Source: Lentisphaerota bacterium
GTDB taxonomy: Bacteria; Verrucomicrobiota; Lentisphaeria; Victivallales; Victivallaceae
Assembly: GCA_015061775.1 (NCBI GenBank)
Contig: SUVY01000011.1
Location: forward strand, 1 to 58,607
Length of the DNA: 58,607 nt
Direction of reading: 5' to 3'
Shown here: one piece after another, positions 48,738 through 58,607 of the stretch
Numbering within the stretch: position 1 is the stretch's first letter
Layout of the letters: each line of letters opens with the position of its first letter
Program-made: the position numbers and the translations under genes
Notes under the pieces: generated by a model
What the model saw: the letters and a program-made list of their open reading frames with translations, nothing else
What the model was told of the DNA's origin: nothing
The model's database searches: none

Positions 48738-48894
48738 GGAACGTTGGGGCTTCCGTTGGTCGCCCCTGCGGGAGTTTTATGTATCTCGTCTGTTGCACTT
48801 TGTGCTCTGACGGGATTTTTTTTGATGGCTGCGCCGGATTTGGGCTGCGCTGTTTTTGGGGGCTGTGCCGGATTGTTTGGCTATAATTGCTCTT

Positions 48895-58062: not shown

Positions 58063-58090
58063 TTGCAAAAGCATGAAACGGTGTTATATT
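58063..58090 (+). promoter_or_regulatory. promoter of tRNA-Asn
   Basis: TTGCAA (58063-58068), a 16-bp spacer and TATATT (58085-58090), ending 13 bp before the mature tRNA 5' end. Confidence 0.6.
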
Positions 58091-58103: not shown

Positions 58104-58178
58104 TCCGGCATAGCTCAGCGGTAGAGTAGGTGGCTGTTAACCACTTGGTCCTTGGTTCGAATCCAAGTGCCGGAGCCA
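58104..58178 (+). tRNA. tRNA-Asn (anticodon GTT)
   Basis: A complete 75-nt cloverleaf. The acceptor stem TCCGGCA/TGCCGGA carries discriminator G and an encoded CCA (58176-58178). The anticodon loop CTGTTAA gives anticodon GTT. The T arm CTTGG/CCAAG encloses TTCGAAT. The CCA is part of a hairpin (CCATTTTTAT/ATAAAAATGG, 58176-58202) that begins the downstream repeats. Confidence 0.95.
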
Positions 58179-58607
58179 TTTTTATTGAAAAGATAAAAAT
58201 GGTGACAAGCGAAGGATTCGCGGGTTCGTGTAAACGAGCCCGCTTTTTTTGTGCAGCAAAAAAAGAACCAAGTTCCCTGTTAGGGTGGTTCGACGTCGCG
58301 AAGCGATGTGCGTGAGCGAAGCGAGGGCAATCCAAGTGCCGGCTTGTCCTCCGCAGCCTTGGCGAAGGAGGAAGCCATTTTTATTGGCAAATAAAAATGG
58401 TGACAAGCGAAGGATTCGCGGGTTCGTGTAAACGAGCCCGCTTTTTTTTGTGCAACAAAAAAATAACCAGATTCCCTGTCAGGGTGGTTCGACGTCGCGA
58501 AGCGATGTGCGTGAGCGAAGCGAGGGCAATCCAAGTGCCGGCTTGTCCTCCGCAGCCTTGGCGAAGGAGGAAGCCATTTTTATTGGCAAATAAAAATGGT
58601 GACAAGC
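58175..58607 (+). repeat. 199-bp tandem repeats containing split copies of the tRNA-Asn 3' end
   Basis: Two full units (58175-58373 and 58374-58572) and the first 35 bp of a third (58573-58607, cut by the window edge), each nearly identical. Every unit holds a CCATTTTTAT-type hairpin, a GCGGGTTCGT/ACGAGCCCGC hairpin, and near its end the tRNA T-arm/acceptor text in three pieces: GGTTCGA, then AATCCAAGTGCCGG, then AGCCA. The pieces are separated by two palindrome-like inserts, one built of GCGAAGCGA-type words and one with TCCTCC/GGAGGA arms. No protein gene is credible here; open frames on both strands merely read through the repeat. Confidence 0.85.

Follow-up and report, generated by a model that had tools for sequence, protein, structure and literature searches.

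Probable cassette-like units with an rtT-type layout behind tRNA-Asn and other tRNA genes of Lentisphaeria

The closest described counterpart of the repeats reported here is the tyrT locus of Escherichia coli, which in NZ_AP018488.1 contains tRNA-Tyr genes together with annotated RtT sRNAs. Its 178-bp units comprise an inverted T-arm (GGGGAAGGATGAGAAG), the T-stem with TTCGA, a hairpin-rich stretch and AATCCTTCCCCCACCACCA. The annotated RtT stops precisely where the tRNA-end copy reaches its CCA. RtT is present in 4584 of 5426 E. coli genomes, at 1 to 9 places per genome. According to a passage in PMC2965389, which cites Bosl and Kersten 1991, rtT RNA is linked to the stringent response. Partial covariation support has been described for RtT RNA (PMC7657543, PMC8250186). 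A Salmonella comparison lists rtT RNA as a 175-bp VNTR, and its table also holds a 220-bp VNTR of tRNA-Gly (PMC2658671), which may be another such case. For decades the tyrT repeats have stood as a single unexplained oddity, and no general description of such tRNA-end repeats was found in the literature searched.

Integron gene cassettes are another relevant system. They stand in serial order and their attC sites are imperfect palindromes, which is the basis of their comparison with the units described below. The mycobacteriophage Ms6 integrates at the T-loop of tRNA-Ala, with a core that reaches into the acceptor (PMC1762012).

The stretch of DNA analyzed here (the window, 58,607 nucleotides) is a contig of a gut bacterium of the Lentisphaerota (class Lentisphaeria). 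It contains an intact tRNA-Asn gene (GTT) at 58104..58178, identified with ARAGORN; this gene, its promoter-like site and the parts of the array located below lie on the plus strand. The promoter-like site of the gene at 58063..58090 (TTGCAA, 16 nt, TATATT) is a match to the consensus only. Directly behind the tRNA, TRF detected a tandem repeat with a period of 199 (58174-58607, 2.2 copies, 96% matches, score 801). Combined with a comparison of the units, this result confirmed the two complete 199-bp units and the beginning of a third that had been described in the initial annotation: unit 1 at 58174..58372, unit 2 at 58373..58571 with 96% identity to unit 1, and the start of unit 3 at 58572..58607, which is cut by the contig end. 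A second contig end of the same genome (G000:C83) carries one more unit end followed by the same terminator. Thus, the array probably joins the contig of the window (G000:C48) to G000:C83, which would be its other end. Only short, overlapping open reading frames are found in the array. As first noted, the units are non-coding and none encodes an integrase; the integrases of these genomes lie elsewhere. The Rfam covariance search of the window returned only tRNA above threshold and no RtT even at E <= 10. Consequently, the window shows the rtT layout and is not a member of the RtT sequence family. Elsewhere in the window a 16-bp tandem repeat with 2.8 copies is located at 48827-48874.

The array is not a product of chance. 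Among 60 related genomes examined, at least 11 others of the genus carry it behind tRNA-Asn. Misassembly, for which a test had been set beforehand, is ruled out since congeners have complete arrays of one to three units in the interior of contigs. G001 has three units of 201 bp, G020 three of 165 bp, G031 one of 195 bp plus one of 165 bp, and G002 one of 159 bp. The tails of inner units match the resident tRNA, with ATCCAAG units behind ATCCAAG tRNAs and GCCCAGG units behind GCCCAGG tRNAs.

The units share a recurrent order. Trailer and terminator come first. Next are a copy of the tRNA end that is inverted and partly decayed, the 5' strand of the T-stem, a T-loop stretch with hairpins and, as the last part, the direct tRNA 3' end, which runs from the T-loop to CCA. 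In unit 1 a putative decayed inverted copy (ATAAAAATGG-11 nt-GGATTCG), recognized by sequence and spacing, occupies 58192..58220. The intrinsic terminator extends from 58220 to 58250 and consists of a 10-bp stem (58220-58243), conserved with compensatory changes, and seven T residues; from its sequence, unit 2 contains a corresponding terminator at 58418..58449 with its stem at 58418-58441 and eight T residues. The earlier statement that no terminator lies between the tRNA and the repeats was therefore wrong. A hairpin AACCA..TGGTT at 58266..58290 represents the inverted T-stem joined to the 5' strand of the direct T-stem. The T-loop insert (58294..58328 in unit 1, 58493..58527 in unit 2) measures 35 bp and not about 37 bp as originally estimated. 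In unit 1, where covariation adds to the sequence as evidence, it is composed of the hairpin CGTCGC-GAA-GCGATG and TGCGTGAGC-GAAGCGAGGGC. The copy of the T-arm 3' strand and acceptor of tRNA-Asn (AATCCAAGTGCCGG) follows at 58329..58342 and 58528..58541, and then the second insert, a dispersed palindrome whose proposed size of 30 bp was correct (58343..58372 and 58542..58571). As first described, GGTTCGA / insert / AATCCAAGTGCCGG / 30-bp insert / AGCCA follow one another in exactly this order in each of the two complete units.

We regard the array as the probable result of an rtT-type process, in which cassette-like, non-coding units were added at tRNA 3' ends and subsequently amplified in tandem. 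The layout, its recurrence at many tRNAs, exact presence or absence, mixed order, conserved hairpins and homogenized copies are the direct observations on which this reading builds. The duplicated tRNA 3' end, the composite unit and the tandem multiplication envisaged in the initial annotation are thereby supported. New with respect to it are the inverted copy of the tRNA end, the occurrence in eight tRNA families across the genus, the pairs of empty and filled loci and the E. coli rtT precedent.

The hairpins of the units are conserved. Over 12 genomes 84 of 84 cells of the terminator stem were paired, as were 44 of 48 cells of the first T-loop hairpin, in both cases with compensatory changes. 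None of 5000 shuffles of the arms among species was as good as the observed pairing, a result to be read with the reservation that selecting the arms visually, alongside RNAfold output, works in their favour and that related species are not independent. The fold of the 199-nt unit has a z-score of -4.1 and forms a train of hairpins. This conserved pairing indicates that a single strand matters, be it RNA or DNA.

One may ask whether the units are small structured RNA genes, as has been reported for E. coli rtT, freed from the tRNA transcript by 3'-end processing at CCA and acting as RNA. A decoy that draws off sRNAs or the enzymes of tRNA processing would be one such role. The stable fold and the compensatory changes favour such an RNA product, as does the E. 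coli annotation that stops at the CCA of the copy. However, each unit carries its intrinsic terminator shortly past the tRNA end, so that the palindromic part would be reached by read-through only. No promoter-like sites were found on the plus strand inside the units, and tandem hairpins may equally be DNA structures. Given the terminator, strong expression of an rtT-like RNA is less likely in the window than in E. coli. We consider the small-RNA reading rather doubtful. It concerns function, whereas rtT-type addition concerns origin, and both can hold together.

The distribution of the units over tRNA genes was surveyed in four genomes of the genus. Each fetched tRNA gene was compared with its own downstream 700 bp using its last 18 nt (13 nt where interrupted) as query, with the tails of other tRNAs as controls. 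An own-end copy, mostly matching at 18 of 18 positions, was detected 126-333 bp downstream of 18 of the 142 tRNA genes, in contrast to 27 of 20,716 control pairings (0.13%). A few of the surveyed loci had been chosen for their insert; with all tRNAs outside the fetched set counted as negative the proportion is still about 11%. Copies were found for Asn, Tyr, Thr, Leu-tag, Leu-taa, Arg-ccg, Arg-tct, Pro-cgg, Pro-tgg, His and three Ser tRNAs, which represent eight families (Asn, Tyr, Thr, Leu, Arg, Pro, Ser and His). Except at His, each copy begins sharply at TCRA of the T-loop. Ahead of it lie the T-stem 5' strand GG(G)TT and a stretch with hairpins, which has either of two orientations. In G009, three different tRNA-Ser genes are followed by one and the same unit. 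The tRNA-His copy of that genome (L245) has an uninterrupted T-arm. Here the T-stem is preceded by the hairpin-rich stretch, and the repeat includes 30 bp or more of the trailer.

An inverted tRNA-end copy is found upstream, most clearly at Leu-tag (TGGCACGCAACGCGGGAC), Arg-tct, Ser and Thr. With all units pooled the inverted tail scored above the control tails (p about 6e-6, for rows that are not independent); in the Asn units alone it is weak and shows no significant excess over control tails.

Outside the genus, own-end copies were present at 3 of 31 tRNAs of G038, which belongs to a second family of the order. In this genome the T-loop stretch differs in the copies of Met and Arg, and tRNA-Asn is followed by four copies of its tail. 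At its tRNA-Met (L326) and tRNA-Arg-acg (L333) genes we observed a second family of T-loop stretches, composed of CGCCAT-hairpin-ATGGCG or the like followed by YCGTATCGRATGATGC. None of the 49 tRNAs in the complete genome G036, from another family, was followed by an own-end copy. A GTDB-wide pattern scan for the T-loop insert gave convincing matches exclusively in Lentisphaeria MAGs, several of them named after ruminant gut samples. Its matches in other phyla (Streptomyces, Paraburkholderia and others) are probably due to chance, judged from lineage.

Orthologous loci with and without units were then compared. The tRNA-Leu/Gly/Tyr locus of G000:C36 is empty. Its orthologues in G015, G012 and G016 align with it over 1.5 kb, 1.5 kb and 0.3 kb, respectively, up to the tRNA end, and the alignment resumes 540, 317 and 144 bp further downstream. 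These insertions behind tRNA-Tyr are bounded by a 20-22-bp direct repeat, which is the tRNA end, and show exact presence or absence. In the filled loci the native terminator of the empty locus (AACCGACTGAAAAGTCGGTTTTTT) follows the last copy, which is decayed (CCCAGTGCCA in place of CCCACCACCA). The flank past the last copy, and not that past the first, matches the empty locus (84/107, 84/108 and 79/92). The same holds for tRNA-Asn: the last-copy flanks of G020 and G012 are identical to the empty G000:C89 flank at 127 of 158 positions, and the first-copy flank is unlike it. Exact loss by recombination between the flanking repeats would leave the same empty site; we thus infer the direction of change, which we take to be insertion and not loss. 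Contig ends G002:C4 and G002:C6 (L075, L076) represent tRNA-Asn loci with and without a unit, which have a common downstream sequence up to the contig end.

Behind tRNA-Tyr two unit types occur in the orders A, A-A, A-B-A (G015) and B-A (G033). Types A and B are only about 51-56% alike and hence unrelated. Such mixed order is cassette behaviour, which simple slippage does not give.

These data bear on the possibility that a single old duplication of tRNA end and trailer was amplified and lost purely by unequal recombination or slippage, through homologous recombination between the tRNA-end repeats and with no site-specific movement. The tandem copies are indeed homogenized, being 96-99% alike within but 67-86% between species, and unit number varies. 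The variable number of rtT places in E. coli and the 175-bp rtT VNTR of Salmonella (PMC2658671) also fit such a process. Nevertheless, unrelated unit types alternate behind one tRNA, and at least eight tRNA families are involved, whose copies, except that of His, share both the starting position in the T-loop and a stretch with hairpins, a pattern that one duplication event cannot give. As a complete account unequal recombination or slippage is thus unlikely, and it is likely to be true for the amplification step only.

The second insert is missing from every observed unit of G020, G025, G002 and G032, and G031 lacks it in its last unit. In these units the sequence runs straight through as GTGCCGGAGCCA or similar and represents the empty site. 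In relatives the 30-bp palindrome also occurs alone elsewhere in the genome; in the genome of the window near-exact copies are limited to the array and G000:C83. A tandem repeat of about 103 bp at G000:C87:21822-21960 (L006) holds a slightly changed version twice. Of the two inserts, this one is a separate, dispersed palindromic element. Of the 18 copies surveyed, 17 contain the T-loop insert, which takes two orientations, always sits at the T-loop and hence belongs to the unit; its late landing as a second element is not supported. According to the initial annotation, two independent palindromic elements, expected to occur outside the array as well, landed in a duplicated tRNA end. This model holds for the 30-bp insert with its empty sites and dispersed copies but is very unlikely overall, since the T-loop insert is confined, among convincing matches, to tRNA-end copies and is present in almost every one of them.

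Other repeats and tRNA fragments were noticed near these loci. A dispersed repeat CGGCGGCGCCT(T/C)GTG..CAATCTCGCGCCTTGCTG lies near tRNA-Asn fragments or genes and at intergenic sites of different species (L004, L006, L085). A lone 3' half of tRNA-Asn, starting from the anticodon loop, is located at G000:C107:7914-7966 (L004/L167), about 0.9 kb from an integrase gene (C107:6534-7040). Unlike the T-loop units, it is a classical attachment site of an integrative element.

A general family search for tyrosine recombinases gave a few per genome and none adjoining the arrays examined; some conserved ones are presumably XerC/D-like. The REP-type Y1 transposase was rejected as a mover, with one or no weak match per genome and none tied to the units. 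A phage origin of the units was likewise rejected: the viral pattern scans yielded 0 matches in one case and 1 chance match inside a coding region in the other, and no viral contig carrying a unit was found in them.

Under the favoured rtT-type reading, a short non-coding unit would enter the tRNA-Asn gene at its T-loop and 3' end, and a site-specific recombinase would act at the T-loop. The unit would bring its own copy of the tRNA from the T-loop to CCA, which keeps the tRNA whole, as well as its own terminator, whereby the old tRNA end and the old terminator would be displaced downstream. Its distal part would be an imperfect palindrome built from the inverted tRNA end, the T-stem, the hairpin-bearing T-loop stretch and the direct tRNA end. 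In cassette-like fashion different unit types could line up behind one tRNA, and identical units would multiply by recombination between the tRNA-end repeats. Later the dispersed 30-bp palindrome would have landed between GCCGG and AGCCA and been multiplied along with the unit. Against this reading stand the weak inverted end of the Asn units, the His copy with its uninterrupted T-arm and the finding that no recombinase is tied to the units.

The same layout behind many tRNAs and its likeness to rtT suggest that tRNA ends collect tiny cassette-like modules. In an extended form of this idea, tRNA genes of the lineage and, by the shared layout, also E. coli tyrT would collect very small non-coding cassettes. 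Folded as a single strand, the palindromic unit end would mimic T-arm and acceptor, and a recombinase of the host or of a resident element would act on it in trans. Integron-like arrays would result, for which the tRNA is the entry site. This proposal is speculative and, taken as a whole, improbable. If true, it would explain the old tyrT repeats. The occurrence of the layout, at His in a related form, in a distant phylum, with empty and filled loci and mixed order, turns the oddity into a class with a testable origin. Should the units be moved by site-specific recombination, they would rank with the smallest integrative units that target tRNAs; otherwise, they mark tRNA ends as hot spots where structured repeats of a defined kind accumulate.

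Among known systems, REP/BIME and Rickettsia palindromic elements resemble the 30-bp second insert in its behaviour, whereas the 199-bp unit itself is bound to tRNA ends. Phage sites of the Ms6 type share the direct repeat from the T-loop into the tRNA end, the rebuilding of the tRNA by the incoming copy and the T-loop as likely exchange point. In contrast, the units of roughly 90-340 bp are non-coding and without integrase, and their distal T-loop is broken by hairpins. By analogy, integron cassettes are comparable in their serial order and in a unit end that may be viewed as an imperfect palindrome of about 90-120 bp; they differ in that the units carry no genes and their palindrome copies a tRNA end. 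E. coli rtT shares tandem non-coding units of variable copy number behind a tRNA, each closing with its own tRNA 3' end (19 bp) through CCA. The T-stem 5' strand ending in TTCGA, the T-loop hairpins and the subsequent AATCC..CCA are found there as well, and so is an inverted T-arm, whose counterpart in the Asn units of the window is putative; the layout of the window is the same down to the break behind TTCGA. The window differs in giving no match to the Rfam RtT covariance model and in the intrinsic terminator of each unit, and here the layout stands behind at least eight tRNA families, also in mixed arrays.
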